IMG/VR virus record: IMGVR_UViG_3300021952_000020
Location: 1 to 34,544 of that record
From: a virus
DNA: 34,544 nucleotides
Direction: 5' to 3' (one strand)
The position numbers and the translations under genes are program-made. A model generated the notes under the pieces. It saw only the letters and a program-made list of their open reading frames with translations. It searched no databases and had not been told where the DNA came from. Below, one piece after another: positions 1 through 11,623 of this stretch. Positions within the stretch are counted from its first letter, which is position 1. The number at the start of each line of letters is the position of its first letter.

Positions 1-13
1 ATCCTTAAAACTT

Positions 14-96
14 TGGTGAGCTGCCCGGGATTCGAACCCGGAAAAACCTGCGGTCTAAACGCAGTAACTGTGCCAATTTGTATATGTCAGCAGCTC
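14..96 (-). tRNA. tRNA-Leu (anticodon UAG)
   Basis: Acceptor GAGCTGC/GCAGCTC, T arm CCGGG-TTCGAAT-CCCGG and an encoded CCA are clear. The anticodon stem CTGCG/CGCAG closes loop TTTAGAC, so the anticodon is UAG at 55-57 and reads CUA. The variable region is only about 6 nt, although leucine tRNAs are normally class II with a long variable arm, and the D stem is weak. This is the last tRNA of the array inside the window. Beyond its CCA, bases 1-13 match the start of the array's recurrent spacer hairpin. Confidence 0.85.
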
Positions 97-201
97 AATA
101 AATCTTTAAACCCTACATCTGAGTTTACCCATAGCAGCAAACTTCGCAGCAGATTCTGCGCTATATGCTGACGCAGCAGCTTTTTTTAATTTAAAATAAA
201 C
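97..201. other. Spacer without a recognised gene
   Basis: About 100 bases between tRNA-Leu and the permuted tRNA unit. On the minus strand they hold several GC-rich inverted pieces built from GCTGC and GCAGA words. An open reading frame crosses them but has no ribosome binding site and continues through tRNA sequence, so I do not call it. Confidence 0.4.
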
Positions 202-315
202 AGGATGTATTCTTTGGGCTGACACTCTACCAACTGAGCTACAAGGTGCATTCACACCTTGGGTGGACTCGAACCACCGACGTTCTGCGTTTAAGAAGAT
301 TGCTGCAAACATCCT
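202..315 (-). tRNA. Circularly permuted tRNA in a spacer hairpin (anticodon probably UAA)
   Basis: Read on the minus strand, the 3' part of a tRNA comes first: loop CTTAAAC (295-289), GCAGA (288-284), variable ACGTC, T arm GGTGG-TTCGAGT-CCACC (278-262) and acceptor strand CAAGGTG (261-255). A 6-nt linker follows (254-249), then the 5' part: acceptor CACCTTG (248-242), D arm with GCTC/GAGT and a GG-containing loop, and TCAGC (222-218). The acceptor strands pair in all 7 positions. The anticodon stem TCAGC/GCAGA pairs 4 of 5. The split lies in the anticodon loop, which would read UAA (Leu). The unit is closed by an inner stem TTCTT/AAGAA and an outer stem AGGATGT/ACATCCT. No CCA is encoded. A dead tandem-duplication remnant is possible. 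Confidence 0.65.
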
Positions 316-320
316 AAAAC

Positions 321-420
321 TGGTTGAAGAGGACGGAACGGCGTATTTTCCATCGACGGAGCCTGTCTTACTCAACGCCGTATAGCTTCCGCAGGCGACA
401 GGCATAAGTTGCGCTCTTCA
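321..420 (-). ncRNA. tRNA-like, pseudoknotted RNA with encoded CCA
   Basis: The ends are those of a tRNA: a 7-bp acceptor TGAAGAG/CTCTTCA, discriminator A and CCA, directly followed by the spacer motif seen after other tRNAs of the array. The inside has no ordinary D, anticodon or TTCRA T arm. Instead CGGAA/TTCCG (334-338 with 387-391) and CGGCGT/ACGCCG (339-344 with 375-380) form a long interrupted stem. A 7-bp helix, GCCTGTC (361-367) with GACAGGC (397-403), crosses it as a pseudoknot. The GC content is higher than in the surroundings. I know no family with this layout. A reading frame also crosses it, but without a binding site. Confidence 0.5.
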
Positions 421-426
421 AAACTT

Positions 427-510
427 TGGTGGATAGTCACGGTAACGATCCGTGCGGGCTGAAGCAAGATCTTTACAGGCTCTCTCACCTCCTTAGTGGT
501 CTAACTATCC
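427..510 (-). tRNA. tRNA-Tyr (anticodon GUA), copy 1
   Basis: Acceptor GGATAGT/ACTATCC with encoded CCA. Anticodon loop CTGTAAA gives GUA at 474-476. The long variable region with a small GCT/AGC stem fits a class II tyrosine tRNA. Two points are unusual: the anticodon stem AGAGC/GATCT has a G-A mismatch, and the T-loop is ATCGTTA instead of the usual TTCRANY. A second, more regular tRNA-Tyr with the same anticodon lies at 2348-2434, so this copy may be diverging. Confidence 0.75.
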
Positions 511-523
511 ATTTGAAACTTAG

Positions 524-580
524 TACTCCCACGGGGATTCGAACCCACGTCGTTCCAGCCCATCTGACCGGTCTTACTAA
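524..580 (-). pseudogene. 3' part of a tRNA (possibly split or degenerate)
   Basis: A T arm with loop TTCGAAT and a GGG/CCC core, plus a 3' acceptor strand TGGGAGT with discriminator A, are visible. An anticodon-like arm CCGGT-CAGATGG-GCTGG lies upstream on the minus strand, with A instead of T before the putative anticodon. No matching 5' acceptor strand is adjacent. A complement, GCTCCCA, occurs at 1375-1381 on the far side of the homing endonuclease gene. This is either a decayed tRNA or the 3' half of one broken up by insertion. CCA is not encoded (CTA instead). Confidence 0.4.
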
Positions 581-581
581 T

Positions 582-674
582 TGGTAGTCCAGCTGGGTAA
601 CGCTCCCAGGACTTGCCCTCATCTAGAGCCTTGGCAGTTTATAAATCTGCGTGTTTTCTTTAAACTACTGGACC
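582..674 (-). tRNA. Degenerate class II tRNA (anticodon reads UAU)
   Basis: Acceptor GGTCCAG/CTGGACT pairs over 7 bp (one G-U) with discriminator A and encoded CCA. T arm CTGGG-AGCGTTA-CCCAG has a non-canonical loop. The D arm GTTT-AAAGA-AAAC lacks the GG pair. The anticodon stem is 4 bp with an A-A mismatch next to loop TTTATAA, giving UAU (641-643), formally isoleucine for AUA. The variable arm is long with its own stem. The first 10 bases overlap the 3' end of the homing endonuclease gene, whose stop codon lies inside the tRNA. Confidence 0.55.
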
Positions 675-1321
675 AATGTTTTTATAAACTCTAAATTTAT
701 TTGTCTATCTGATAAAATCACTACTACAATATCGTTAATTTCCATAGCAGATTCAATCTTGCGTCGATCCATTTTTATTAAATAATCGTTCTTTGGATCT
801 AAAAATATGTTATGTTTTGGAAGATAAAAATCTGGAATATACCTACGAATTTTTCCATTGTCGTTCCACTTATAACCTTGCCTAACTTTAACCCATTCTA
901 TATCTAACTTATCAAGTATTTCTGCAACTCTAACCTCATAAGACGATTCTAAAATGACACTAGGTTTATATTCAACATTTTTACTGTATTTCGAATGTTT
1001 AGCTAATCGTTCACATGCTTTGATTGACAACAAATCTTTGGTGGTTTCTGAGTGGCGGAACGTTCCAGCCTCAAACCCGCCCATCGAGGCACCAAGTTTG
1101 CCATAATATGATTGTTTGTCTCTATTGACATGACTTCGGCTAACATGCCCGCAAAGCCCAGCCCTACTATTAAACACCTTTCCACACACATCGCAGAAAC
1201 ACTCGACCATTTTCGATAAATACGAAGCGTTTCTATTAGGATTTAATTTACATAATCGTTCATGATTATGAAGTGAATTTAAATTTTTACATTCTTTGTT
1301 ACAAAATTTACATACTAGCAT
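665..1321 (-). CDS. Zinc-finger PD-(D/E)XK homing endonuclease
   Basis: A 218-residue protein with two N-terminal zinc-finger motifs: C4/C7 with H19/C23, and a C2H2 finger around residues 42-65 (CDVCG with HVSRSH). The C-terminal half has a PD-(D/E)XK nuclease signature: a Glu in SSYEVR, PDF in YIPDFYLP and DPK in IFLDPK. Free-standing endonucleases of this build occur in T4-like phages as homing enzymes that cut intron-less or gene-less alleles. It starts at ATG 1321 behind GAGG with good spacing and ends inside a downstream tRNA gene on the same strand. Its place within a tRNA array suggests recent insertion, perhaps breaking a tRNA (see 524-580 and 1340-1381). The specific cleavage site is unknown. 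Confidence 0.75.
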   Translation of the reverse strand: MLVCKFCNKECKNLNSLHNHERLCKLNPNRNASYLSKMVECFCDVCGKVFNSRAGLCGHVSRSHVNRDKQSYYGKLGASMGGFEAGTFRHSETTKDLLSIKACERLAKHSKYSKNVEYKPSVILESSYEVRVAEILDKLDIEWVKVRQGYKWNDNGKIRRYIPDFYLPKHNIFLDPKNDYLIKMDRRKIESAMEINDIVVVILSDRQINLEFIKTLVQ

Positions 1322-1339
1322 AAGTTATTCCTCTTATGC

Positions 1340-1381
1340 TATTTATGATTAAATCTTCGCCGCATGCCAATGCTTGGGAGC
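1340..1381 (-). pseudogene. Possible 5' part of a tRNA upstream of the homing endonuclease
   Basis: On the minus strand GCTCCCA (1381-1375) would pair over 7 bp with TGGGAGT at 525-531. It is followed by AG and a GCAT/ATGC pairing that could be a shortened D stem. The intact 3' part lies some 800 bases downstream, beyond the endonuclease gene and another tRNA. The complementarity is the only strong support, and a 7-nt match can arise by chance. Confidence 0.25.
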
Positions 1382-1393
1382 AATTTTGAAACT

Positions 1394-1479
1394 TGGTGCT
1401 GAGTGTAGGATTCGAACCTGCGGGGGATTACTCCGGTTGCTTACAAGGCAACTGCCGTCAACCACTTGGCTAACTCAGC
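1394..1479 (-). tRNA. tRNA-Thr (anticodon UGU) with long variable arm
   Basis: Acceptor GCTGAGT/ACTCAGC, discriminator A, encoded CCA. Anticodon stem GTTGC/GCAAC closes CTTGTAA, giving UGU (1443-1445). The variable region is 14 nt with GGA/TCC pairing, and the D arm resembles serine and leucine tRNAs. That is a class II body on a threonine anticodon, since normal threonine tRNAs have a 5-nt variable loop. The tRNA-Thr of phage T4 has the same anticodon loop and a similar acceptor end, so Thr identity is plausible. Confidence 0.8.
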
Positions 1480-1489
1480 AATAATAAAT

Positions 1490-1565
1490 TGGTACACCCA
1501 TACGGAATCGAACCGTCTCCTCATCCTCTTCAGGGACACGCGCAGACCACTTACGCCATAGGTGC
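1490..1565 (-). tRNA. tRNA-Phe (anticodon GAA)
   Basis: Acceptor GCACCTA/TGGGTGT, discriminator A, encoded CCA. D stem GCGT/GCGC with GG in the loop, anticodon loop CTGAAGA giving GAA at 1529-1531, T-loop TTCGATT. The anticodon stem relies on two G-U pairs. It follows tRNA-Trp by a few bases in the direction of transcription. Confidence 0.85.
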
Positions 1566-1571
1566 ATCGTT

Positions 1572-1645
1572 CGGCAGGAGTAGATAGAATCGAACTATCA
1601 TAGAGTGCTTTGGAGACACCCACACTACCATTGTGTTATACTCCT
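1572..1645 (-). tRNA. tRNA-Trp (anticodon CCA)
   Basis: Acceptor AGGAGTA/TACTCCT with discriminator G, D stem ACAC/GTGT, anticodon loop CTCCAAA giving CCA at 1611-1613, T arm GATAG-TTCGATT-CTATC. The three bases after the discriminator are CCG, so the terminal A must come from repair by nucleotidyltransferase. The anticodon CCA decodes UGG only, so there is no UGA-reading tRNA here. Confidence 0.85.
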
Positions 1646-1656
1646 AAAAATTAAAC

Positions 1657-1718
1657 AGGATTCCATTTTTGTCAATGTATCAGATTGATTTTATAAAAAT
1701 GTTTGCTGAAAGAATCCT
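1657..1718 (-). repeat. Inter-tRNA spacer hairpin, copy B
   Basis: Stem AGGATTC/GAATCCT (1657-1663 with 1712-1718) lies after the CCA of tRNA-Pro. It encloses the conserved TTTCAGCAAAC on the 5' side of the RNA and an inner stem CATTTTT/AAAAATG. GTTTA follows the stem and could pair with AAAC of the conserved motif as a pseudoknot. One of six copies in this array. Confidence 0.7.
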
Positions 1719-1724
1719 AAAACT

Positions 1725-1802
1725 TGGTCTCTCGCACACGATTCGAACGTGCATCCTCTACGCCCCAAACGTAGTGACTTAACCAGATTAGCCCAACGAG
1801 AG
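1725..1802 (-). tRNA. tRNA-Pro (anticodon UGG)
   Basis: Acceptor CTCTCGT/GCGAGAG, discriminator A, encoded CCA. Anticodon stem CTACG/CGTAG closes TTTGGGG, giving UGG at 1765-1767. T arm GCACG-TTCGAAT-CGTGT. The D stem has only three pairs. Its CCA is followed by spacer hairpin copy B. Confidence 0.9.
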
Positions 1803-1810
1803 ATAAAACT

Positions 1811-1886
1811 TGGCACTGCTGACGGGAGTCGAACCCGCGTATCTCGCTAGACAGGCGAGTATAATGAGCCGTTATATGACAGCAGT
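1811..1886 (-). tRNA. tRNA-Asp (anticodon GUC)
   Basis: Acceptor ACTGCTG/CAGCAGT, discriminator G, encoded CCA. Anticodon stem CTCGC/GCGAG closes CTGTCTA, giving GUC at 1850-1852. T arm GCGGG-TTCGACT-CCCGT. Discriminator G is the normal identity element for aspartate tRNAs. The acceptor stem is identical in sequence to that of the tRNA-Glu at 2681-2755. Confidence 0.9.
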
Positions 1887-1898
1887 ATAAAACTTGAC

Positions 1899-1952
1899 AG
1901 GATGAAACTTTTTCGATTAACGGTCGATTGTTTAGAGTGCTGAACTCATCCT
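1899..1952 (-). repeat. Inter-tRNA spacer hairpin, copy C
   Basis: Stem AGGATGA/TCATCCT after the CCA of tRNA-Ala. It encloses TTCAGCA, a shortened version of the conserved motif, and a CGA/TCG inner pairing. The two stem strands differ from the other copies by matching changes. Confidence 0.65.
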
Positions 1953-1960
1953 TGAAACCT

Positions 1961-2036
1961 TGGTGGAGTTGGCGAGCCTCGAACTCGCAAATGTCTGCTT
2001 GCAAAGCAGGTGCTGTACCAATTGAGCCACAACCCC
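1961..2036 (-). tRNA. tRNA-Ala (anticodon UGC)
   Basis: Acceptor GGGGTTG/CAACTCC (one G-U), discriminator A, encoded CCA. D arm GCTC/CAGC with GG, anticodon stem CCTGC/GCAGA closing TTTGCAA, giving UGC at 2001-2003. T arm GCGAG-TTCGAGG-CTCGC. A regular, functional-looking tRNA. The G3-U70 alanine identity pair is present as the third acceptor pair. Confidence 0.92.
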
Positions 2037-2347
2037 ATGAAATTCTAATATGCAAATAGTAAATTATGAATTAACCACTTGCATATTACCTTTCAGTAAT
2101 ACGGTTCTACTTTGGCTTTTCAACTATGATCTCGTCCACCAATGCTGGGCATGACTTCCAACACGGCGAACCTAAGAACTTGTACTATACAGTTGATTTA
2201 TACCCTCGGAAGTATCCGATATTAGTATCACGGGGTTTACATCATAAGACAATACGTTCTTTGAGACTCGGTATCCAAATTTTGCTAACAGATAGAACTA
2301 CCTGCGATGCCCGACGACATCTATTTGAGGTGTACACCCCAAAATTC
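2037..2347 (-). other. Gene-free, hairpin-rich stretch between tRNA-Ala and tRNA-Tyr
   Basis: No tRNA or credible reading frame is visible. A perfect 10-bp hairpin, TAATATGCAA/TTGCATATTA (2046-2055 with 2079-2088), lies just upstream of tRNA-Ala. Further pairings are CAGGTA-GTTC-TATCTG, GGGCAT/ATGCCC about 150 nt apart, TCGG-ATACTT-CCGA, and GGGGTnTAC with GTAnACCCC. Together they suggest a folded RNA of about 250 nt. I see none of the conserved core sequences of group I introns, RNase P or tmRNA. Confidence 0.4.
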
Positions 2348-2434
2348 TGGTGGTTGCCCTAGGAATCGAACCTAGCCAGCCCTATGAGCTTCGGATTTAC
2401 AGTCCGAGCCGCGTCCATAGCGGTATATGCAACC
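2348..2434 (-). tRNA. tRNA-Tyr (anticodon GUA), copy 2
   Basis: Acceptor GGTTGC/GCAACC, discriminator A, encoded CCA. D arm CCGC-TATGGAC-GCGG, anticodon stem TCGGA/TCCGA closing CTGTAAA, giving GUA at 2398-2400. The class II variable arm and T arm CTAGG-TTCGATT-CCTAG are regular. It is the better preserved of the two tyrosine tRNAs. Confidence 0.9.
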
Positions 2435-2440
2435 AATTAA

Positions 2441-2545
2441 AGCATTGAGCTGTCTAGGTTGGACTCGAACCAACAAAGGGATTAACCCATACTCGATTAA
2501 CAGTCGAGGCCGATGCCTATTCCGGTCACTAGACAGCTCAATGCT
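2441..2545 (-). tRNA. tRNA-Asn (anticodon GUU), extended acceptor stem, long variable arm
   Basis: The tRNA body spans 2450-2536: acceptor CTGTCTA/TAGACAG, anticodon stem CTCGA/TCGAG closing CTGTTAA (GUU at 2499-2501), T arm GTTGG-TTCGAGT-CCAAC. No CCA is encoded. The flanks 2441-2449 and 2537-2545 are complementary (AGCATTGAG/CTCAATGCT) and lengthen the acceptor helix to about 16 bp in the precursor. The variable region is about 17 nt with a GGG/CCC stem, unlike ordinary asparagine tRNAs. Maturation must open this helix and add CCA. Confidence 0.8.
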
Positions 2546-2558
2546 CTTATTACTAAAC

Positions 2559-2674
2559 AGGATCTCTCTTTTAAGTGCTATCCGCTACACCACACAAAGT
2601 TTTACCTTTGCGCTGGGATTCGAACCCAGCCCGTTTTCGCTCAATGAAATTAGAAAGGTTGCTGAAAAGATCCT
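2559..2674 (-). tRNA. Circularly permuted tRNA in a spacer hairpin (anticodon probably UGA)
   Basis: Minus-strand order is: anticodon arm TTTC-ATTGAGC-GAAA (2649-2635, anticodon UGA at 2641-2643, U33 present), variable ACGGG, T arm CTGGG-TTCGAAT-CCCAG (2629-2613), acceptor strand CGCAAAG (2612-2606), 6-nt linker GTAAAA, acceptor strand CTTTGTG (2599-2593), TG, D arm GTGT-AGCGGATA-GCAC (to 2575). Acceptor strands pair in 7 of 7. The new ends lie between D arm and anticodon arm. They are joined by inner stem CTTTCTAA/TTAAAAG (one bulge) and outer stem AGGATC/GATCCT of the spacer hairpin. Anticodon UGA would be serine, yet the variable loop is short. No CCA is encoded. It could be a remnant. Confidence 0.7.
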
Positions 2675-2680
2675 AAAACT

Positions 2681-2755
2681 TGGTACTGCTGACGGGTTTC
2701 GATCCCGCTTCCTTACCGTGAAAGGGTAATGTCCTAGCCACTAGACGACAGCAGT
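2681..2755 (-). tRNA. tRNA-Glu (anticodon UUC)
   Basis: Acceptor ACTGCTG/CAGCAGT, discriminator A, encoded CCA. Anticodon stem TTACC/GGTAA closes CTTTCAC, giving UUC at 2720-2722. T arm GCGGG-ATCGAAA-CCCGT, with A instead of T at the first loop position. Its CCA is followed by the spacer hairpin that holds the permuted tRNA at 2559-2674. Confidence 0.9.
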
Positions 2756-2782
2756 ATAACTACGTTCACTTACAAGTGAATT

Positions 2783-2857
2783 TGGCTGAGGAGGAAAGAC
2801 TCGAACTTTCTAACCTGAGGTCAAAGCTCAGTATCCATACCCTTGGATATCTCCCCA
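2783..2857 (-). tRNA. tRNA-Gln (anticodon UUG)
   Basis: Acceptor TGGGGAG/CTCCTCA, discriminator G, encoded CCA. D stem ATCC/GGAT, anticodon stem CTGAG/CTCAG closing CTTTGAC, giving UUG at 2822-2824. T arm GAAAG-TTCGAGT-CTTTC. The U1-A72 first pair is typical of bacterial glutamine tRNAs. Confidence 0.9.
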
Positions 2858-2870
2858 TTAAACTTCTAAC

Positions 2871-2927
2871 AGAATACCGTTTGCTTTCACAGCCTATAGT
2901 GAATTTAGTGTTTGCTGAAAGTATTCT
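2871..2927 (-). repeat. Inter-tRNA spacer hairpin, copy E
   Basis: Stem AGAATAC/GTATTCT after the CCA of tRNA-Gly. It encloses TTTCAGCAAACA and an inner TTCAC/GTGAA hairpin, and is followed by GTTAG. The stem differs from copies A-D on both strands, keeping pairing. Confidence 0.7.
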
Positions 2928-2934
2928 AAAATTT

Positions 2935-3010
2935 TGGAGCGGATGACGTGATTCGAACACGCGACGAACGGCTTGGAAGGCCGACACTCTACCAACTGAG
3001 TTACATCCGC
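2935..3010 (-). tRNA. tRNA-Gly (anticodon UCC)
   Basis: Acceptor GCGGATG/CATCCGC, discriminator U, encoded CCA. D arm ACTC/GAGT with GG, anticodon loop CTTCCAA giving UCC at 2975-2977, T arm GCGTG-TTCGAAT-CACGT. Discriminator U is usual for glycine tRNAs. The D arm and position 26 are nearly the same as in the permuted tRNA at 202-315. Confidence 0.9.
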
Positions 3011-3024
3011 ATCGTTAAATAAAC

Positions 3025-3081
3025 AGAATGGAATTTGTCGCGAGACATTGAAAGATCGCTGTTGTTTGCAGTATCCATTCT
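3025..3081 (-). repeat. Inter-tRNA spacer hairpin, copy F
   Basis: Stem AGAATGGA/TCCATTCT after the CCA of tRNA-Ile. It encloses CTGCAAACA and is followed by TGTTTA, which can pair with AAACA. It is the most upstream copy in the direction of transcription. Confidence 0.65.
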
Positions 3082-3087
3082 AAATTT

Positions 3088-3162
3088 TGGTGCATCACCT
3101 TGGGATCGAACCAAGGACTTATCACTTATCAAGCGATTACTCTACCACTGAGTTAGTGATGC
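3088..3162 (-). tRNA. tRNA-Ile (anticodon GAU)
   Basis: Acceptor GCATCAC/GTGATGC, discriminator A, encoded CCA. D arm ACTC/GAGT, anticodon loop TTGATAA giving GAU at 3128-3130, T arm CTTGG-TTCGATC-CCAAG. The anticodon stem ATCGC/GTGAT contains one C-T mismatch. Confidence 0.88.
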
Positions 3163-3321
3163 GATAAAAAATGTACTTCTGAACTAATTGGTGGTTGATA
3201 GTTCTACTAATAAACTATCAACCTTAAATTTGATGTGAGCTCTTTCGATGCAATTGCATGAACCTAACTATCGCTTGATATTATCTCAATTAGGGCCTCT
3301 TCATGCAACCTACTCACAACA
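3163..3321. other. Spacer with two long hairpins
   Basis: No gene is visible. A perfect 11-bp hairpin GGTTGATAGTT/AACTATCAACC (3193-3203 with 3213-3223, 9-nt loop) has no U-run on either side. A second, larger hairpin pairs TTGCATGAA (3254-3262) with TTCATGCAA (3300-3308) and CCTAA with TTAGG inside it. Both lie between tRNA-Ile and a degenerate tRNA. They may be processing signals of the polycistronic tRNA precursor. Confidence 0.4.
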
Positions 3322-3399
3322 TTAACAACGTCGGAATCGAACCGTGGAACTTTTAACCACTGTGTGATCTCACAGTATGCCACCAAGCATTCATTGTTA
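3322..3399 (-). tRNA. Degenerate class II tRNA (identity unclear)
   Basis: Acceptor TAACA(A/T) pairs with GTTGTTA over 7 bp, D arm ATGC-TTGGTG-GCAT with GG, T-loop TTCGATT. The anticodon stem CTGTG/CACAG closes only 6 nt, AGATCA, without the invariant U33, so no anticodon can be assigned. The variable arm is long (GTGG/CCAC). CCA is not encoded. It may be inactive or serve another purpose. Confidence 0.5.
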
Positions 3400-3438
3400 A
3401 TCGTTTGAAGTTCTGAAAATTTCCAAAACTTCGAATGT

Positions 3439-3507
3439 AGCGGACGTGGGATTCGAACCCCGCATCAGGGTTATGAGCCCTGCGTTCTACCGTTAAACTA
3501 CCTCCGC
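3439..3507 (-). tRNA. tRNA-Met (anticodon CAU)
   Basis: Acceptor GCGGAGG/CGTCCGC with one G-G mismatch, D arm GTTT-AACGGTA-GAAC, anticodon stem CAGGG/CCCTG closing CTCATAA, giving CAU at 3473-3475. T arm reduced to GGG/CCC around TTCGAAT, very short variable region, no CCA. If C34 is modified to lysidine it would read AUA as isoleucine instead; the sequence cannot decide this. Confidence 0.75.
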
Positions 3508-3540
3508 AACTTGTAACACACTCTTATCGAATGTGTATAA

Positions 3541-3619
3541 CTAACGATTCAGTGTTAGCAGATTTGAACTGCTATCTCGCCATAAGCGATGTTACTTACA
3601 CCAAACACTAACTCGTTAG
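3541..3619 (-). tRNA. Short tRNA-like gene (anticodon reads UAU) with extended acceptor stem
   Basis: The core at 3550-3610 has acceptor TAGTGTT/AACACTG, T arm AGCAG-TTCAAAT-CTGCT, a minimal D region without GG, and an anticodon arm whose loop CTTATGG reads UAU (3582-3584). It is only about 60 nt long. Flanks CTAACGA/TCGTTAG (3541-3547 with 3613-3619) extend the acceptor helix as in the tRNA-Asn precursor. No CCA is encoded. It is the first tRNA-like gene of the array in the direction of transcription. Confidence 0.5.
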
Positions 3620-4044
3620 TTATATTTGAATTTTACAATAGCGCGTTCCTGTCCGCTACTTCACTCCTCAAATACGCCCATTATTCGTTTTTATACAGGT
3701 TGGATTGGCTCGCGTTGCTCATTCCCTGTTGCTACTGTTTAAGCATTTTACTACAGTTTGTTTCTGTTGTAAAGCACTTTGTTTGCACTGCATCAACTTC
3801 GTTTCCGTTGTTGCTACAGTTTCGCTATATTAAACTAATGTGTGTAATTTGTAAAGCACTTTCTACACATCATTTGCAGCTTGGTGAACTAAGTTGCATC
3901 GTTTGCTACAGTTCAAACATTGTACAACAACTCACTTTCTTTGTAAAGCACTTTGTTGTATGTTGGAACTTGCTGTTTACTGCACACTTCCAACATGTCG
4001 CTATAGTACACACATCCAATAAGTTTGTAAAGCACTATTTGCTT
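3620..4044 (-). repeat. Array of alternating hairpins with a TGTAAAGCACTTT repeat
   Basis: TGTAAAGCACTTT or a near copy occurs at 3768, 3850, 3942 and 4026, so 82-92 nt apart. At least two copies lie in the loop of a hairpin with a different stem each time, for example TACAACAA/TTGTTGTA at 3923-3930 with 3953-3960. Between them lie hairpins of a second type near a GCTACAG-like motif, such as ATGTTGGAA/TTCCAACAT (3960-3968 with 3988-3996). No reading frame on either strand looks real. The array sits just upstream of the tRNA genes in their direction of transcription and could be a leader RNA, protein-binding array or origin. Confidence 0.6.
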
Positions 4045-4059
4045 TAATATGCTATTTAG
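4045..4059 (-). promoter_or_regulatory. Candidate late-promoter motif
   Basis: On the minus strand this reads CTAAATAGCATATTA. Similar motifs, CTAAAT followed by an ATATATTA-like string, stand upstream of the minus-strand operons starting at 5520, 26651 and 32118. CTAAATA resembles part of the T4 late promoter TATAAATA. If real, it would start transcription through the hairpin array into the tRNAs. Confidence 0.3.
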
Positions 4060-4121
4060 TGAGAAAAATTTTAAATTTGTACCATTTTGATATAATTGAG
4101 CAAAAATATCTTCGACGAAAG

Positions 4122-4565
4122 TTAGAACTTCTTAACCTTTGCATAATAACTTTTGTATTTGGCGGGTGTAAATACCTCTTCAGATTTATATTTCTTGGCG
4201 GCACTAGACGATTTAAGAATTACTTTGGGTTTTATGTGCCCGCTTTTCATGTGTGCATCGGAAATGTTATCGCCGTTATCTATGATGAACGATTTAGTTT
4301 CTACCCAAAAATGTCCACTGTCATTGAAATCGCCGCCATGAATGGTGTGTGGGACATAGTATTTGTCTAATTCAGTTGAAATATACCTAGATGCGTGAGT
4401 GCAAGTCGCAAGTCCATCATTGAACTTCTTATCTATGATAGCACTCGTCTTCTTAAAGACACTATCAGATATCTTCCTAAGCAACCTCTCTTCACTGTCA
4501 ATAGTTTTAACATCGCGCCAATCACGAGCTGCCGCACCACTTTCAAACAATTTGCTGGGTTTCAT
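4122..4565 (-). CDS. Putative cysteine-peptidase-like phage protein
   Basis: A 147-residue protein I cannot place in a named family. Its middle has an order of residues seen in papain-like and transglutaminase-like enzymes: Cys55 in ATCTHAS, then His85 in SGHFWVE, then Asp96 in IIDNGDN. There is no signal peptide or membrane segment. The N- and C-terminal parts are rich in lysine and serine. Its start ATG overlaps the stop of the gene at 4562-5011 as ATGA, so the two are translationally coupled. The three genes 5520 to 4122 form one operon ahead of the tRNA array. The enzymatic reading rests on the motif alone. A structural role is equally possible. Confidence 0.5.
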   Translation of the reverse strand: MKPSKLFESGAAARDWRDVKTIDSEERLLRKISDSVFKKTSAIIDKKFNDGLATCTHASRYISTELDKYYVPHTIHGGDFNDSGHFWVETKSFIIDNGDNISDAHMKSGHIKPKVILKSSSAAKKYKSEEVFTPAKYKSYYAKVKKF

Positions 4566-5011
4566 ATCGCCACTCTCATTTTATCAAACCAAAAAATATC
4601 TTCGCCATGTGTAAGTTGGATGTTTTTAAACCGCTTTCTTTGTATGCCAGCATCAACTTGCATTTTAACAAGTTCAGCCACACTCCGCCCACTACCCGCG
4701 CCTATATTCCACTTCCCAGTCGAACTATACCGTAAAGAATTGTGACTTCCATAGGGTCGAGACGCATTCTTTGATTGGATGACGTGTATTACATTATCCC
4801 CACCGTCCGAATATCTAGCCACACTATATTGTAACGTCGAAGCCGCTGCACCATTTGCGCTATAACATTCAGAATAAAGGCTAAGAATTTGAATGTCTCC
4901 AACCACGTTAAAAATTACATCGACGGTAGTCATTACCTTTATAGGCGGGGTTACTACTTTTGATTGCGAGTCGGAAACGCCTGCTATTCTTGAATCAACA
5001 AATGCTACCAT
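4562..5011 (-). CDS. Hypothetical, probable virion protein
   Basis: A 149-residue soluble protein without recognisable catalytic motifs. It is rich in beta-forming residues (for example VVTPPIKVMTTVDVIF), which fits a tail, fibre or decoration protein. It is the middle gene of a three-gene minus-strand operon. The upstream gene ends only two bases before its ATG, and its own stop overlaps the next start. Both neighbours also look structural or virion-linked. Function not recognised. Confidence 0.6.
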   Translation of the reverse strand: MVAFVDSRIAGVSDSQSKVVTPPIKVMTTVDVIFNVVGDIQILSLYSECYSANGAAASTLQYSVARYSDGGDNVIHVIQSKNASRPYGSHNSLRYSSTGKWNIGAGSGRSVAELVKMQVDAGIQRKRFKNIQLTHGEDIFWFDKMRVAI

Positions 5012-5013
5012 GA

Positions 5014-5520
5014 TTAACCGCCTACAAAAATGGACACTACTGCATTAGTTCCACTTACAGAATCTACTGACGCATTAACGAATGGCCATAGAGCATTGAA
5101 CGTTAATGCGTCCGTTGCTGCCGTCGTGCCGTTCAAAATAATCGAACCTAATGGGACATAATTTGTGCCATTCAAAGATGCGGTAAGCGTGATTGTTGCT
5201 TGCACGGAACCTGAACCAGAAACAACTGCCTGAACGATTGCGGGCGATCCAACACAATTAGGGATGGTCAATGGAATTTGGGGTGTTAATGATCTGAACG
5301 CGTAAGCTGTACCAGTTCCGACAGACAGCCATTTCTTCTCGACAGAAACCGTGAATGTGTTTACATCGACAACTGTTACAGTTAAGTTTGGCGCATCTGG
5401 TAGATCCACGACATCGCCTGTGGCTAACCCGTGCGCGTATGATGTGCATGTAAGAATGCCGTTAGACCAGATAGCTGTAAACGATAATGGACGACTTGCT
5501 TTAGAAACCCTGCTGGACAT
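5014..5520 (-). CDS. Hypothetical, beta-rich probable virion protein
   Basis: 168 residues, low in charged residues and rich in Thr, Val, Ser and Gly, like phage decoration, fibre or neck proteins. The segment around residues 22-60 (HGLATGDVVDLPDA) resembles the small beta domain common in phage tail-fibre proteins, where a GL.TGD.V pattern recurs. It starts at ATG 5520 behind a strong AAGGAG site and is the first gene of its operon. A candidate late-promoter motif lies 15-35 bases upstream. No enzyme signature is seen. Confidence 0.6.
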   Translation of the reverse strand: MSSRVSKASRPLSFTAIWSNGILTCTSYAHGLATGDVVDLPDAPNLTVTVVDVNTFTVSVEKKWLSVGTGTAYAFRSLTPQIPLTIPNCVGSPAIVQAVVSGSGSVQATITLTASLNGTNYVPLGSIILNGTTAATDALTFNALWPFVNASVDSVSGTNAVVSIFVGG

Positions 5521-5533
5521 TAGTTCTTCTCCT

Positions 5534-5555
5534 TAATATATATACCATAATTTAG
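5534..5555 (-). promoter_or_regulatory. Candidate late-promoter motif
   Basis: Minus-strand CTAAATTATGG followed by TATATATATTA, ending 14 bases before the ATG at 5520. It matches the arrangement upstream of 26651 and 32118. Spacing to the start codon is short, so the transcript leader would be only a few bases, or the -10 element is the upstream CTAAAT part. Confidence 0.3.
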
Positions 5556-6026
5556 CACTTTAGTTTAGCCAATAAGGCGGCGTAAGGTGAACTACATCAA
5601 GCAAAAATAATGCAGCTTGTTAGCCGCAGTTATGATTCTTACAAGTTCTTACCTTACGTCAAAGCCAATTTGATTAGGAGTGCTTTGGTACAACGACAAA
5701 TAGTGTCTTCCTGCCATATTGGCAATTGTGCTCAATCAGAGCTACTAACTAATTTGTGTTAAGAGTGGAAATTATCAGGTGGAGTTACGATCTCCCAAAC
5801 GCTAAGTCACCTCTGCAAGAACCTGTTTTTACTGTACGCCCCTTAGCAATACAATCGCGTCGCCGCCTATGTTGAACGCGTGGTGGAAAGTTACCACCAT
5901 ACCCCTCTACTATCCACGGTACACGGAAGGGATGCACTATCGCTTCTGAAGCTAGACTTCAACGCTGTTGGGAGCGCGTTCAAACGAGTTGACATGTTTA
6001 TTTAGTGCGAATTGTTCCGAAATTAC

Positions 6027-6046
6027 ATTTATTTTTCGAAATAAAT
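6027..6046. terminator. UUCG-capped hairpin
   Basis: ATTTATTT-TTCG-AAATAAAT forms an 8-bp stem with a stable UUCG tetraloop. AT-rich flanks without a long U-run make it a weak terminator at best. It stands just upstream of the promoter-like TATAAT at 6074-6079 for the methyltransferase gene. Confidence 0.4.
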
Positions 6047-6110
6047 ATCACAACTTAAAATCAAAGTTTTTGTTATAATTTGTATTTGGTGTAAACATAT
6101 TGGAGAGCAC

Positions 6111-7370
6111 ATGGTTATTACGGTAGGTAGCATTTGTAGTGGAATTGAAGCTGCATCAGTGGCGTGGGAAGGTACAGAGTTAAAAGTGCAATGGGTTTCT
6201 GAAATTGCTAAATTTCCCACGGAATTTTTAAAGCACACATATCCATCAATCCCTAATCACGGGGATTTATCGAGTATTCCTGAAAAGATTAAAGCAGGCG
6301 AAATTGTCCCACCTGACATGATTTGTGGTGGAACGCCATGTCAAGCATTTTCTATGAACGGTTCGCGGAAAGGGCTTGAAGATGAAAGAGGTAATCTTAC
6401 TCTCAAGTTTGTAGATATCATTGAGCAAAATGATGAAACACGATTGCAAATGGGTTTAGGGGGCACTACGATTTTTTGGGAAAATGTAGTTGGTGTTTTG
6501 TCTGACAAAACAAACGCATTTGGCTGCCTTTTAGCAGCACTTGCTGGATATGATACGCCACTAACTACAAACAAAAGTTGGCCACTTGCAGGTATAGTTC
6601 GAGGGCCAAAGAGAAACATTGCATGGCGAGTTTTAGATGCAAAATACTTCGGAGTGTGTCAACGTCGACGGCGAGTATATTTAATGGCTGGGGGTAAGGA
6701 CTTTTTCCCCGAAAAGGTATTATTTGATGAATATAACCCAACCGCAATTGATACTAAACCGAATTTTGATTTAACGTTCAACAAAGACGGGTATAACTTT
6801 GAACTGTTCCGCGATCATACTGCATGTATTCTTGCTGGTTATGGCCCAAGCTACTCGGATGAATTTGTAGCGGGTAATTCATCTGTATTTGTAGTGCAAG
6901 ACGGTGCAATCAGAAATTTTTCACCGCTAGAGTGTGAGCGGTTAATGGGATTTGCCGATAACTATACTAATGTGTTAGGTGCAACAAATACTAAACGCTA
7001 TCATGCACTTGGAAACTCTTGGGCAGTGCCGGTAATCAAATGGCTAGGGAGTAGATTGGTCAAGCATTTATCACGGCCGGATAAATTACCAGATTATGCC
7101 GGTAGTATATCGTTGATTTTACCAAATGCAAAAAAACTGGCCCTTAGTGATGGCACTATTGTCAATTGTTCTGATAAACCTACACACCCGAATTATGGAA
7201 ATATCTATGATGTTGTCGATGGTAAATCTGCTACTATTCCGTACCTATCACTAAGAACATTAAATGCCATGATTCAAAGGGGTATCAGAAAGAACCTAAA
7301 ACTACACCCTAGATTAGTCGAAGTTTTAAAATCGCAGTTTGGTGATCAAGTAGTGTTTACTAGAAACTGA
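6111..7370 (+). CDS. DNA (cytosine-5-)-methyltransferase
   Basis: A 419-residue C5 methyltransferase, moving a methyl group from S-adenosylmethionine to cytosine in DNA. Visible motifs in order: SAM-binding SICSGIEA near residues 7-14, catalytic GGTPCQAFS with Cys77, ENV at 124-126, QRRRRVY at 184-190, and a late GNSW motif closing the SAM fold. The region between motifs VIII and IX, the target recognition domain, is short. About 90 residues follow the catalytic domain (from ~330) and I do not recognise them. No restriction enzyme lies nearby, so it is probably an orphan used to protect phage DNA. Start ATG 6111 follows GGAGAG, with TATAAT at 6074-6079 upstream. Confidence 0.9.
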   Translation: MVITVGSICSGIEAASVAWEGTELKVQWVSEIAKFPTEFLKHTYPSIPNHGDLSSIPEKIKAGEIVPPDMICGGTPCQAFSMNGSRKGLEDERGNLTLKFVDIIEQNDETRLQMGLGGTTIFWENVVGVLSDKTNAFGCLLAALAGYDTPLTTNKSWPLAGIVRGPKRNIAWRVLDAKYFGVCQRRRRVYLMAGGKDFFPEKVLFDEYNPTAIDTKPNFDLTFNKDGYNFELFRDHTACILAGYGPSYSDEFVAGNSSVFVVQDGAIRNFSPLECERLMGFADNYTNVLGATNTKRYHALGNSWAVPVIKWLGSRLVKHLSRPDKLPDYAGSISLILPNAKKLALSDGTIVNCSDKPTHPNYGNIYDVVDGKSATIPYLSLRTLNAMIQRGIRKNLKLHPRLVEVLKSQFGDQVVFTRN

Positions 7371-7390
7371 TCAATTGTTCTAGAGCTGCC

Positions 7391-7618
7391 ATGACTAAAA
7401 CCCTAGTTCTAACCATCAATGGTTGTAGAAATTGTCCTTATTATCAAGTTTGGCAGCATAATGAACCCCCGACTTGCAAACTTTCGAACAAGCCTTTGCC
7501 GTTTGAAGTAAGAACTGACAGTCACGATGGATCTAAATATGCACATTTCATAGGCGGAGTTGCTGAATGGTGTGAAATTCCGACGGACCCAAATATAAAG
7601 CACATCTTTACAAAATGA
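7391..7618 (+). CDS. Small protein with four cysteines
   Basis: 75 residues. Two cysteine pairs, C12/C15 (CRNC) and C29/C61, may hold a zinc ion. Otherwise it carries no motif that I recognise. It follows the cytosine methyltransferase by 20 bases and its end overlaps the next start (ATGA), so it belongs to the same transcript. No strong ribosome binding site precedes its ATG. Function unknown. Confidence 0.65.
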   Translation: MTKTLVLTINGCRNCPYYQVWQHNEPPTCKLSNKPLPFEVRTDSHDGSKYAHFIGGVAEWCEIPTDPNIKHIFTK

Positions 7619-7884
7619 CTACAGAACCAAGATATGTGATTTATCAAGCCATAGATGATCGTGTTACTAAAGTATTCTTTGAAGGTGAAACTTTTACTAA
7701 GGAAGAAGTGATCAGGATAACCGGCTGGTTTAATCCAAAAACTCAAGCTGGATTATTTGAGTTGTTAGATACAGAGGCACCACCTTGGGTTGTTAATCCT
7801 GACCTCTACGAAATTTACATAGAATATACAGACAAAAGAATATGTCCAATATACAAACGTCTGATGAATTTTTGGCCAGCTTAG
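7615..7884 (+). CDS. Hypothetical protein
   Basis: 89 residues, acidic and aromatic-rich, soluble, without known motif. Its ATG overlaps the stop codon of the gene before it, suggesting translational coupling. It is followed by a 48-codon reading frame without a start (7902-8048), so the region downstream may be a decayed gene. Function unknown. Confidence 0.6.
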   Translation: MTTEPRYVIYQAIDDRVTKVFFEGETFTKEEVIRITGWFNPKTQAGLFELLDTEAPPWVVNPDLYEIYIEYTDKRICPIYKRLMNFWPA

Positions 7885-7901
7885 ATGATGTAAGGTCTTA
7901 G

Positions 7902-8048
7902 TTTAAAACTTGGAATTTTAGGTGGCTACAGATTTGCGATTTTGGCTTTGGTCTAGCAGTTCCGCAAGCTGAATACGGGGTCATTCGTCACCCTCAAAAT
8001 GTCGAATATATTTGGTTAGATATACCTAGAGATACGTTTGCTAAATAA
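7902..8048 (+). pseudogene. Start-less reading frame, possible gene remnant
   Basis: An open frame of 48 codons ending at TAA 8048 has a natural-looking amino-acid composition (for example QAEYGVIRHPQNVEYIWLDI) but contains no ATG, GTG or TTG near its 5' end and no ribosome binding site. It may be the 3' end of a gene that lost its beginning, or chance. The stretch 7885-8071 otherwise holds nothing I recognise. Confidence 0.35.
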
Positions 8049-8071
8049 AGATTGTGATATTTGAGGTTGAT

Positions 8072-8371
8072 ATGAAAAAGAAATCTGAGGAATTGCTTTA
8101 CGTTCAAAAGAAAATGGAAAGGAGAGATGTACTTATTGTCCTATTATCTGCTCATTTGTTTCTAACCATAATTTCTATTGTTTATATAACGGATGCGACC
8201 GCGCGATCTGAATTGGCATGTGCTATCGTTTTTGGTAATGCCATATGGCTAATGCTTGAGATGTTATTCTTTGGTATTTTTACTCACGTCCTTTCTACCA
8301 AGGCAGATGCGCATTGGGCGTATCTTGTGGAGTTTCGACAAAAGAATTTAAGCAATGAAATCCGAAACTAA
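8072..8371 (+). CDS. Small membrane protein with two transmembrane segments
   Basis: 99 residues when started at ATG 8072, which sits 5 bases after GAGG. An upstream in-frame GTG at 8054 has no such site. After a charged, helical N-terminus (KKKSEELLYVQKKMERRD) come two hydrophobic spans, about 22-43 and 50-72, followed by a basic tail. Its end overlaps the start of the adenine methyltransferase by 17 bases. Location is the inner membrane; role unknown. Confidence 0.65.
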   Translation: MKKKSEELLYVQKKMERRDVLIVLLSAHLFLTIISIVYITDATARSELACAIVFGNAIWLMLEMLFFGIFTHVLSTKADAHWAYLVEFRQKNLSNEIRN

Positions 8372-9368
8372 ACGGTTAAAAGTGGTCACCGGCAGTTTTT
8401 ATACTGTGGGTGGATCTTGGTTAGTTGAGCCTGTGCGTGAATTTATCAAGAATTCGTTGACACACTTTCCAAGCGTGCTAGACCCATTTGCAGGCGACGG
8501 GCATTTGTTGGAAGTTTGTCAGAACGAATTCGGGTGTGATATCGGCGGGTTTGATATTAAACAAGGAAAGTGGGAAATAAACGATAGTCTTGTAGGCATC
8601 CCAATTCGTTCTAGCCAGATGATAGTTACCAACCCTCCGTACTTAGCGAAGAATAGCGCGACTAGGAAAGGAGTTGGGAACGACGTATCTAAGTATTTTC
8701 TAGACACGCAAGATTCCGATCTGTACCAAGTTGCATTAAGGAAATGTTTAAATTCTACTCGATTTGTGGTTGCTATCGTACCAGAAACTTTCATTCTGTC
8801 AACGTTTCCGAAGCACTCGCTAGTATCCGTATCGGTTATCGAGGATAACCCATTCGGGGACACAGATGTTCCTATTTGTGTAGCGTGTTTTGATACCACA
8901 TATAAGTGGGGTGAAACAGATGCGAAGATTTACAAAGGTAATGATTATTGCGCGACCTTGGGCGAAATTAAACAGTGCAGAACAATGTTTGTGAAATGTG
9001 AAGGAATCCGATTTAATAATCCCAATGGTCAGATTGGCCTTCGTGCTATTGACGGTTCTGTGAACAGAATTGAATTTATGGCAAGTTCTGAGTTAAATTA
9101 TCCAAACGAAAAGATAGGTGTGTCGAGTAGGGTAATAACTAAAATCTTTTTAGACGGTGTTGGTAATTCGGAATTACCAATCGTGATCAAAACTGCAAAT
9201 TCGATATTAGAGGAACTTAGGTCGAAATCCTTCGACCTGATATTGTCTCCGTTCAAAGGAAATACCAAGTCTGGGGTTAGACGACGTAGATTGGATTATG
9301 CCTTGGCTAAAGGCATTATATCTACGTCGATGATGCGTGTGCGTGTGGGATGTGGTATTACTTGGTGA
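8355..9368 (+). CDS. DNA N6-adenine methyltransferase
   Basis: 337 residues. Motif I VLDPFAGDGHLL (41-52) binds S-adenosylmethionine and motif IV NPPY (93-96) holds the flipped adenine, as in N6-adenine methyltransferases. The order motif I before motif IV fits the gamma or related classes. The C-terminal part, 200-337, probably recognises DNA. No cognate nuclease is visible, so it is likely an orphan modifying phage or host DNA together with the cytosine methyltransferase at 6111. It overlaps the preceding membrane-protein gene, and its last 11 bases overlap a convergent gene. Confidence 0.85.
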   Translation: MKSETKRLKVVTGSFYTVGGSWLVEPVREFIKNSLTHFPSVLDPFAGDGHLLEVCQNEFGCDIGGFDIKQGKWEINDSLVGIPIRSSQMIVTNPPYLAKNSATRKGVGNDVSKYFLDTQDSDLYQVALRKCLNSTRFVVAIVPETFILSTFPKHSLVSVSVIEDNPFGDTDVPICVACFDTTYKWGETDAKIYKGNDYCATLGEIKQCRTMFVKCEGIRFNNPNGQIGLRAIDGSVNRIEFMASSELNYPNEKIGVSSRVITKIFLDGVGNSELPIVIKTANSILEELRSKSFDLILSPFKGNTKSGVRRRRLDYALAKGIISTSMMRVRVGCGITW

Positions 9369-9786
9369 ATGTTATAGTAACCACCATATTCTCAGAACAT
9401 TTGCCAGCCAGCGCAAATTTATTTCTGCCAAATTCCTTCAGCGAAAAATAATACGAACGAAATCTGCCTACGTTTTCGATGTAGGCATCGTCAATCTGTA
9501 AGTTGGTTAATAGACTAACGCATAGCGATTCCGATATCGGGTTAGAAAACGTGCCAGCCGTAACTTCTAATTCCGTTTCCCTAGCTTTATAGGATATGTG
9601 TGGCAATGTCTTGATGCCGACCGGTACGCCTTCTTTCCAGTCTAAGACAGTGTCTTCAATCGCGTATAGTGTCTGTTTGTTGTCGTTACTGCCAATTTTA
9701 TAGTTGACAGCATATAACACTAACCATGAAGCACATAAGAAAATACCAATCGAACCTAAAACGATTAAAAATCTACGTTTTCGCAT
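9358..9786 (-). CDS. Membrane-anchored protein with pilin-like C-terminus
   Basis: 142 residues: a basic start (MRKRR), one hydrophobic segment at about 6-27, then a soluble domain that should face the periplasm. The pattern ESLCVSLL near residue 86 and AGKCSENMVVTITF near the end resembles the two-cysteine C-terminal domain of type IVb pilins, but the N-terminus lacks a pilin prepilin cleavage motif. It is convergent with the adenine methyltransferase and overlaps the 3' end of the gene upstream of it (9765-10094) by 22 bases, so the two are coupled. A role in excluding pilus-binding phages would be speculation. Confidence 0.55.
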   Translation of the reverse strand: MRKRRFLIVLGSIGIFLCASWLVLYAVNYKIGSNDNKQTLYAIEDTVLDWKEGVPVGIKTLPHISYKARETELEVTAGTFSNPISESLCVSLLTNLQIDDAYIENVGRFRSYYFSLKEFGRNKFALAGKCSENMVVTITFTK

Positions 9787-10094
9787 ACGACTTCACCCTT
9801 CATTGTATAGCCTGTCAGTTTATTTCCGCTGGCAAGTCCCTCAGTTGACAACCAAACGTGGGTATTTTTATCCATTGTATAAGTGCCACCTTTGTATCCT
9901 TCGAACTGCTGCCCAATGCAGGAAATTACATAATTCATCACTTCGTTGGCAGGCTGTTTACGGCCGTTACTTTCAAATGCAATATCGTCATAATACCCAC
10001 GGTAGGAATGTGCGCATTCAAGCGCATCGATTTGTTTATCGGATGGGAACGACGACAATTGTTCTACAAGTTCTGCGATAGTAAGTTGTTTCAT
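9765..10094 (-). CDS. Small phage protein related to the 10269 product at its N-terminus
   Basis: 109 residues, soluble. The start MKQLTIAELVEQLSSFPSDKQID resembles in layout the protein on the other side of the divergent promoter (MKVQQLIELLGDFDPEMEV). Small proteins of this kind, with a short helix and then a beta domain, are common early products of T4-like phages and mostly uncharacterised. It starts at ATG 10094 behind AGAGGG and is driven by the minus promoter at 10145-10172. It overlaps the membrane protein gene that follows. Confidence 0.6.
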   Translation of the reverse strand: MKQLTIAELVEQLSSFPSDKQIDALECAHSYRGYYDDIAFESNGRKQPANEVMNYVISCIGQQFEGYKGGTYTMDKNTHVWLSTEGLASGNKLTGYTMKGEVVCENVDF

Positions 10095-10144
10095 TTTGTA
10101 TTCCCTCTAAAAGTTAAACTACGTTATTGTTGCTTGATGTGCGT

Positions 10145-10172
10145 ATTATACACAAACGTTACATATTTACAA
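10145..10172 (-). promoter_or_regulatory. Sigma70-type promoter for the 10094 gene
   Basis: On the minus strand TTGTAA (10172-10167), 16 bases, TATAAT (10150-10145). It is followed by ACGCACATCAAGCAAC, the same downstream string found after the phage's other promoters. It faces away from the plus promoter at 10197-10224. Confidence 0.75.
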
Positions 10173-10198
10173 TAGCAAAATTGATTAAATTTGCTATT
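10171..10198. promoter_or_regulatory. Inverted repeat between divergent promoters, possible operator
   Basis: AATAGCAAA (10171-10179) and TTTGCTATT (10190-10198) are perfect inverted repeats with a 10-base AT-rich centre. They overlap the outer edge of both -35 elements. A dimeric regulator bound here would control both directions. Confidence 0.45.
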
Positions 10199-10224
10199 TA
10201 CATTTCCTAAAGACTGTGTATAAT
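10197..10224 (+). promoter_or_regulatory. Sigma70-type promoter for the 10269 operon
   Basis: TTTACA, 16 bases, TATAAT, with the preceding TGTG and the following GCACACATCAAGCAACG shared with promoters at 11328 and 23177. The transcript leader would be about 35 nt. Confidence 0.8.
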
Positions 10225-10268
10225 GCACACATCAAGCAACGTATTATTAACTGTTTAGGAGACACAAA

Positions 10269-11324: not shown

Positions 11325-11327
11325 GAC

Positions 11328-11355
11328 TTTACATTTTCTAAAAAGTGTGTATAAT
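11328..11355 (+). promoter_or_regulatory. Sigma70-type promoter for 11404 and the RNA ligase
   Basis: TTTACA, 16 bases, TATAAT, followed by ACACACATCAAGCAAC. The element begins right after the stop codon at 11324 and drives a new transcript containing the RNA ligase. Confidence 0.8.
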
Positions 11356-11403
11356 ACACACATCAAGCAACAATAACGTAGTTTAACTTCAAAGGAGCCA
11401 TAA

Positions 11404-11622: not shown

Positions 11623-11623
11623 A

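Follow-up and report, generated by a model that had tools for sequence, protein, structure and literature searches.

Hairpins set between the tRNA genes of a viral DNA stretch of 34,544 bases (IMG/VR virus record IMGVR_UViG_3300021952_000020; this whole stretch is called the window below) are members of a large RNA family and not mere spacers. We propose, with a probability of roughly four in five, that they are small non-coding Y-RNA-like RNAs and putative partners of DUF2828, a phage protein that by its predicted fold is a relative of human Ro60. Computational analysis shows a covarying RNA module, a cargo that mimics tRNA, a linkage to DUF2828 genes obtained from either search direction, and a Ro60 fold in the protein model.

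In Ro ribonucleoprotein particles (Ro RNPs), the stem that joins the ends of the Y RNA docks on the Ro ring, and the far end of the RNA, which in YrlA resembles a tRNA, brings in other factors or keeps them out. A further mark of Y RNAs is that each genome encodes one or more with a tRNA-like domain. A 2014 list by Chen et al. reportedly has Y RNAs close to Ro60 for over 250 species of bacteria and phages, and may include some of the hairpins described here. In broad terms, Ro60 proteins and tRNA-like Y RNAs of phages are known from the literature: PMC7824862 describes phages in which a TROVE protein has a tRNA-like partner, and PMC7765460 remarks that several phages carry YrlA. What seems to be new is the dispersal of such RNAs through tRNA arrays, the short forms that carry an anticodon, and a match to the Class I RNAs of Dictyostelium.

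A covarying hairpin family in tRNA arrays

An exact scan of the window recovered six full hairpin copies on the minus strand, which is the tRNA strand, at the positions given in an earlier note on this DNA (202, 1657, 1899, 2559, 2871 and 3025); in all six the stem partner is perfect over 7 nucleotides (nt) and is followed by G. Four copies are short (54–62 nt) and two are long, with a permuted tRNA, and wherever a tRNA precedes, the hairpin begins 6–8 nt past the called gene. The sequence after the stem that the earlier note regarded as conserved held only in part: TTTCAGCAAAC is exact in two of the six copies, and the copy at 1899 reads CAGCACTC instead of CAGCAAAC.

The claim of paired changes in the stem, which an absence of excess paired change among further copies would have contradicted, was examined on 155 unique sites selected with a pattern that fixes the 5′ side only, the partner being sought within 130 nt. 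The exact 7-nt complement is present in 120 of the 155, followed by G in 119 of these 120, compared with 220 of 20,846 trials (1.06%) in which the stem was given other variable bases and with a mean of 16.5 and a maximum of 31 in 2000 permutations of swapped stems. Motif scans of IMG/VR with three patterns yielded 334 loci, which hold 877 unique perfect-stem hairpins, 656 of them with G after the stem (identical hairpins counted once; loci L120 and L121, which duplicate the window, excluded). Beyond the fetch patterns, in 170 loci with at least four tRNAs, a hairpin followed by G occurs at 401 of 10,105 CxGCA sites, compared with 12–35 hairpins in 4,213–9,914 sites for six control cores in the same loci. 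As the scan demanded CxGCA, conservation of C, G, C and A in these unselected copies is partly by construction; at the free core positions, the A after C is kept in 81% and the fifth A in 83%.

The module comprises a 7-bp stem, NTNCAGCAA, a variable cargo, an A-rich stretch, the second stem strand and G, and the consensus reads U-rich lead, A-G-R-W-U-N-N, N-U-N-C-A-G-C-A-A, cargo, A-rich stretch, stem′, G-U-U, with stem bases that are highly variable across the family. R1, a covariance model trained on 45 short hairpins that all come from other phages and exclude those of the window, detects the four short window copies (E between 1.1e-8 and 2.6e-7), and the next-best match stands at E 1.3; the two long copies score poorly (E 2.6 for that at 2559–2674 and 4.3 for the other) because of their cargo length. 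Across 69 hairpin-poor array loci R1 gives a single match, at E 0.48. Covariation, family scan and model together support the view, already put forward from the window alone, that a selected RNA structure is present.

A further suggestion, that AAAC after the 5′ strand pairs with GTTTA after the 3′ strand, did not survive: such pairing is weak at best and non-conserved, and we dropped the pseudoknot, all four pairs forming in 30 of 413 hairpins against a shuffled mean of 19 and maximum of 33. A single pair, position 16 with post-stem position 3, exceeds all 1000 shuffles. The idea that circularization rebuilds an anticodon loop from the stem with its CT and AG edges was likewise abandoned, there being no supporting test.

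The nearest tRNA within 1 kb lies on the same strand for 556 of the 656 hairpins and on the opposite strand for 10, with none for the other 90. Hairpins mostly stand 5–6 nt past a tRNA, 9–10 nt ahead of the next and 9 nt from one another. G-UUA may stand where N73-CCA would, in which case these distances agree.

Many copies per genome, varied cargo and tandem arrays with 9-nt spacing could also suggest a DNA-level mobile hairpin, attC-like or a transposon end, that moves tRNA cassettes. The orientation, however, is locked to the tRNA or DUF2828 strand, stems of one locus differ as much as stems of different loci (29 of 872 identical, or 3.3%, with an expectation of 3.6%), and there is no sign of attC arms. 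The integron and transposon-end readings were rejected for the locked orientation and the within-locus diversity, and we consider a mobile hairpin hardly credible.

Linkage of the hairpins to DUF2828 genes

Searches that started from the RNA led to DUF2828. The gene is encoded by 22 of 26 hairpin-rich records, including records of only 5–12 kb, and by 35 of a further 50, the window being among the 15 without it. For comparison, arrays were collected with a T-arm/D-arm pattern blind to the hairpin (120 loci, 79 with at least four tRNAs); two or more hairpins occur in 9 of the 79 and in none of the 79 when the sequence is reversed. With hairpins counted by the strict scan, the DUF2828 gene occurs in 7 of the 9 arrays that have at least two, in 0 of 5 with one and, above the cut-off, in 1 of 39 with none, the 39 being those searched among 65 hairpin-free arrays with at least four tRNAs (7/9 versus 1/44, Fisher's test, 1.8e-6). 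The lone exception, L379, does contain hairpins, with one base fewer ahead of CAGCAA, which the strict scan missed.

Searches from the protein led back to the RNA. Among the best 80 of at least 591 IMG/VR contigs encoding DUF2828, 71 have a hairpin within 1 kb of the gene and on its strand (control motifs, 0–1), with 163 hairpins on the gene strand versus 2 on the other; many end 12–29 nt ahead of the start codon, and every one of the 152 R1 matches at E 0.01 shares the strand of the gene. This set overlaps the motif-fetched records and R1 was trained on motif-fetched loci, so that its independence is partial. The results from 18 DUF2828 loci in bacterial or archaeal assemblies, several of which may be host-binned phage contigs, are independent of motif fetching for both hairpin scan and R1. 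Here, 8 of the 18 loci together hold 14 hairpins that are no more than 1 kb from the gene and share its strand; none is on the opposite strand, and one occurs in the 154 kb farther from the gene; eight control cores give 0–1 near the gene on its strand, and R1 at E ≤ 0.05 matches 12 of the 18, always on the gene strand and often just upstream. One of these loci (L503) has been attributed to a Woesearchaeota archaeon.

DUF2828 itself is widespread, matching 672 of 50,697 isolate phage records, including E. coli K-12 phages; 20 of the matching records give K-12 MG1655 as host. In 8 of 13 isolate DUF2828 regions R1 detects the family (E ≤ 0.01), and a looser scan adds three plausible isolates, Cronobacter S13, Staphylococcus SEP9 and, weakly, Stenotrophomonas DLP_6. 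In the isolate Aeromonas phage LAh_8 (L035), hairpins flank the DUF2828 gene on either side; the annotated start of this gene (L336:12363-13859) overlaps two hairpins, which may therefore have been translated in the annotation, and the gene probably begins some 35 codons further inward. RNA ligases neighbour DUF2828 in several phages: Rnl2 in LAh_8, an RNA ligase in CBB and a tRNA-splicing ligase in Listeria A511.

The adjacency to DUF2828 bears on two further readings. The fixed distances to tRNAs, mostly 5–6 nt after one and 9–10 nt before the next, and the shared strand would suit hairpins that act in cis as punctuation of the array, as cleavage or pausing signals without a protein partner of their own. 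We judge this unlikely: hairpins adjoin DUF2828 in loci without a called tRNA (L493, L495, L497 and L500), 65 of the 79 motif-blind arrays have none by the strict scan, and the tRNA-mimic cargo would be left unexplained. The many hairpins that end 12–29 nt ahead of the DUF2828 start in the 80 best of at least 591 contigs could instead mean that the element mainly controls translation of this gene, array copies being spillover; as most array copies lie away from a DUF2828 gene, and hairpins lie downstream of it in some phages (Rumpelstiltskin, SEP9 and KP13-16), this is exceedingly improbable.

A predicted Ro60 fold for DUF2828

The AlphaFold model of DUF2828 (475 amino acids, pLDDT 88.4, pTM 0.87) has as its top eleven Foldseek matches only Ro60/TROVE structures, with E from 1.6e-8, and VIA-align superposes it on RNA-bound Ro60 with a Z of 20.6 over 416 residues, compared with about 10 for unrelated vWA proteins. 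In a sequence-profile search of the PDB, TROVE proteins also come top, weakly (E 0.0099). Computationally, DUF2828 is thus modelled with the Ro60 architecture, a helical-repeat ring and a vWA domain. Mycobacteriophage records label the DUF2828-matching protein 'Ro-like RNA binding protein', and the phage Ro60 proteins (Thermus phage phiLo, 9l5y; mycobacteriophages) resemble DUF2828 in fold and annotation; they are known as proteins, whereas in our Rfam scan no hairpin of the present family reaches the threshold of any Rfam family. Canonical TROVE was discarded as the partner: PF05731 is found in 1 of 45 records, itself hairpin-free, and in none of five DUF2828-bearing hairpin records. That single match comes from a tRNA-array phage (L388 record, G042).

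tRNA mimicry in the cargo

The cargo is 50 nt or shorter in 335 of the 656 hairpins and exceeds 135 nt in 69, the latter partly by chance. As the earlier note had proposed for the loop inserts, permuted tRNAs are carried by both long window copies, and by at least 60 of the 656 family cargos under a strict simple pattern; tRNA-like bodies in normal order number about 10, one of which (L029 at 913) is actually permuted. By folding, the copy at 202–315 runs in the order T arm, acceptor with short closing loop, D arm, and in that at 2559–2674 a 6-nt loop connects the acceptor halves. Among the 60 permuted cargos, the acceptor halves pair in 56, joined in 36 of these by a loop of 3–6 nt, and CCA is kept in only 12; with closed acceptors mostly lacking CCA, most cannot be ordinary tRNAs unaltered.

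Short cargos mimic a single arm. An anticodon-type loop of seven bases on a stem of five pairs is found in 111 of 328 cargos of 20–50 nt, compared with 1.25 in shuffles and 7 for a mirrored loop in the same 328. The window copy at 1657–1718 holds TCAAT-CTGATAC-ATTGA, an anticodon-arm shape. The mimicked anticodons are skewed, UGU (30) and UUU (26) making up 56 of the 111. In Escherichia phage wV8 (L596), 'tRNA-OTHER' pseudogene features at 5042-5129 and 6355-6425 sit among hairpins, and the hairpin at 5365-5490 has as its cargo a permuted tRNA, which the annotation does not list as a tRNA. A tRNA of LAh_8 (L336:16660-16776) has an insert of about 50 nt in its anticodon region, possibly an intron.

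The CCA that follows the acceptor in 12 of 56 permuted cargos could speak for a permuted intron or self-processing element whose flanking stem circularizes its content, so that the permuted tRNAs mature to working tRNAs. This reading is highly improbable given that 335 of 656 cargos are no longer than 50 nt and most are one or two arms only, that 3–6 nt join the acceptor halves in 36 of 56, and that no ribozyme family is among the Rfam matches. The processing or excision element envisaged in the earlier note is likewise the poorer account, the same hairpins adjoining DUF2828 genes even where no tRNA was found; a Y RNA with a tRNA mimic fits better, because of this adjacency and the closed acceptors, mostly without CCA.

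Comparison with YrlA and other structured RNAs

Measured against Y RNAs, the phage hairpins have their ends paired in a conserved stem and lie beside a gene of the Ro60 family through DUF2828 (Z 20.6), though the window is without such a gene; a tRNA-like domain is present in 60 of 656 hairpins and in both long window copies, a tally over the family and not genome by genome. They resemble YrlA (RF02553) in the end-joining stem, the A-rich 3′ side of the internal loop and the adjacency to a gene for a Ro60-fold protein, and their cargo presents T arm, acceptor with short closing loop and D arm in the same order. Long hairpins align end to end with the YrlA model, below threshold: the best scores 48.9 bits against a gathering score of 69, and the window match (199-315) 33.0 bits (E 3.2e-7), which is non-specific as tRNA-array controls reach 34.8 bits. 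Unlike YrlA, the hairpins have NTNCAGCAA as putative docking strand, occur in multiple copies inside tRNA arrays, half of them short with one arm only, and have DUF2828 as their putative partner rather than the TROVE family.

Theta ribozymes have a double-pseudoknot core. HDV-like RNAs of this class adjoin phage tRNA genes (PMC10879173). Being a structured RNA beside phage tRNAs is the trait in common, and Rfam reports none in the window.

Comparison with Dictyostelium Class I RNAs

Class I RNAs have a 6-bp covarying stem, a conserved G and a CUGU end, with an 11-nt motif in which T3, C6, C9, A10 and A11 are fixed, and are called unique to dictyostelids by Kjellin et al. 2021 (PMC7919456). The phage hairpins likewise have an end-joining stem, short and covarying, a 5′ G, a CUGU 3′ end, a motif ending in CAGCAA, a variable middle and an overall length of about 60 nt. 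Short hairpins align end to end with the Class I model (RF01414), below threshold; the best scores 36.5 bits against a gathering score of 41.5, and the window gives 26.5 bits at 1656-1717 (E 1.4e-4) and 23.9 bits at a second copy (Table 1). In a comparison of 25 hairpin or DUF2828 records with 24 hairpin-free array records, RF01414 at E ≤ 0.001 matches 13 of the former and 0 of the latter; at E 0.1 the counts are 20 and 2, with matches in 4 of 14 named control genomes as well.

The two groups differ in that phage hairpins mostly place CAGCAA one base closer to the stem and leave the T3 base free, and in that Class I genes have their own promoter. The amoeba binder is Rnp1A, an RRM protein, for which the passages on it in PMC7919456 report no link to Ro60. 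The sources of the hairpins are all viral, bacterial or archaeal assemblies, none from Dictyostelia. DUF2828 is also encoded by protist viruses (Pithovirus, Cafeteria virus and marseillevirus), which makes a shared origin of the phage and amoeba RNAs conceivable. In the literature searched, DUF2828 was not linked to any RNA, nor Class I RNA to Ro60, and all mentions of DUF2828 were on plants.

The hairpins and neighbouring genes of the window

The coordinates of the hairpins and of their context are collected in Table 1. The window's DnaB-like helicase is about 42% identical to helicases of T4-like cyanophages. Its tRNA array includes two tRNA-Tyr genes, both with anticodon GTA (427-510 and 2348-2434, minus strand), and a gene at 665-1321 (minus strand) with weak C2H2 zinc-finger matches, which by sequence may be a homing-type endonuclease. 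A UvsX/RecA-like gene at 15898-17388 (plus strand) seems to bear an intein, on weak RecA and intein-splicing matches.

Table 1. Hairpin RNAs of the window and selected neighbouring features
Feature	Position	Strand	Stem	Loop sequence	Basis or remark
Possible 5′ start of a seventh copy, truncated by the window end	1–13	−			five stem bases only
Long hairpin RNA, permuted-tRNA cargo	202–315	−	AGGATGT/ACATCCT	TTGCAGCAATC	exact scan, fold
tRNA array, 15 genes called	427–3508	−			encloses hairpins; strand shared
Short hairpin RNA	1657–1718	−	AGGATTC/GAATCCT	TTTCAGCAAAC	R1 E 1.9e-8
Short hairpin RNA	1899–1952	−	AGGATGA/TCATCCT	GTTCAGCACTC	R1 E 2.6e-7
Long hairpin RNA, permuted-tRNA cargo	2559–2674	−	AGGATCT/AGATCCT	TTTCAGCAACC	exact scan, fold
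Short hairpin RNA	2871–2927	−	AGAATAC/GTATTCT	TTTCAGCAAAC	R1 E 1.1e-8; RF01414 23.9 bits, E 6.4e-4
Short hairpin RNA	3025–3081	−	AGAATGG/CCATTCT	ATACTGCAAAC	R1 E 6.8e-8
T4 RNA ligase 1 family gene	11606–12700	+			RNA-repair context only; PF09511 E 6.9e-13

Proposed mechanism and implications

Several results weigh against hairpins that partner DUF2828. The window (34.5 kb) contains no DUF2828 or TROVE gene, profile A1 included, and 20 other hairpin-positive records of up to 180 kb yield no DUF2828 with profile A1. Conversely, in 2 of the 13 isolate regions, those of Vibrio nt-1 and Pectobacterium CBB, no hairpin lies beside DUF2828. The YrlA model, moreover, also matches hairpin-free tRNA arrays (best 34.8 versus 48.9 bits), and the case therefore rests on architecture and gene linkage. 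All records without DUF2828 may be incomplete, though some may rely on another protein. Relatives of the window's phage were sought for DUF2828, with none in one viral scan and an empty megablast of positions 1–12000 against phages.

The hairpins have the anatomy of the Y RNA in Ro RNPs, and their stem and CAGCAA core would therefore dock on the DUF2828 ring. Processing of the flanking tRNAs, by RNase P on the next and by 3′ processing of the previous one, would release the RNA from the transcript of the array. The working end would be the protruding mimic of a tRNA or anticodon arm. During infection it would recruit or block enzymes that act on tRNA, for example anticodon nucleases of the host or repair enzymes, and its role would most likely lie in RNA repair or in countering the tRNA damage that host defences inflict. 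For a Salmonella operon, the idea that the tRNA-like domain of YrlA may compete for an anticodon nuclease is raised in PMC7790460. Where a copy immediately precedes the start codon of DUF2828, the protein may regulate itself.

More tentatively, and at somewhat less than even odds, the phage hairpins and the amoeba Class I RNAs could form one ancient Y-RNA-like family that is bound everywhere by a DUF2828-type Ro60 protein. Class I RNAs would then not be confined to Dictyostelia, nor would they be a novelty that came with multicellularity there, and large phages would run a battery of tRNA-mimic adaptors from their tRNA arrays. The hairpins offer the Class I RNAs a first relative outside Dictyostelia, and with it the prediction that Class I RNAs bind a Ro60-fold protein. 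If the proposed partnership is true, a widespread un-annotated RNA family gains a named partner and a testable function, and the Ro60/Y RNA principle comes to cover the DUF2828 clade as well as the tRNA arrays of phages.

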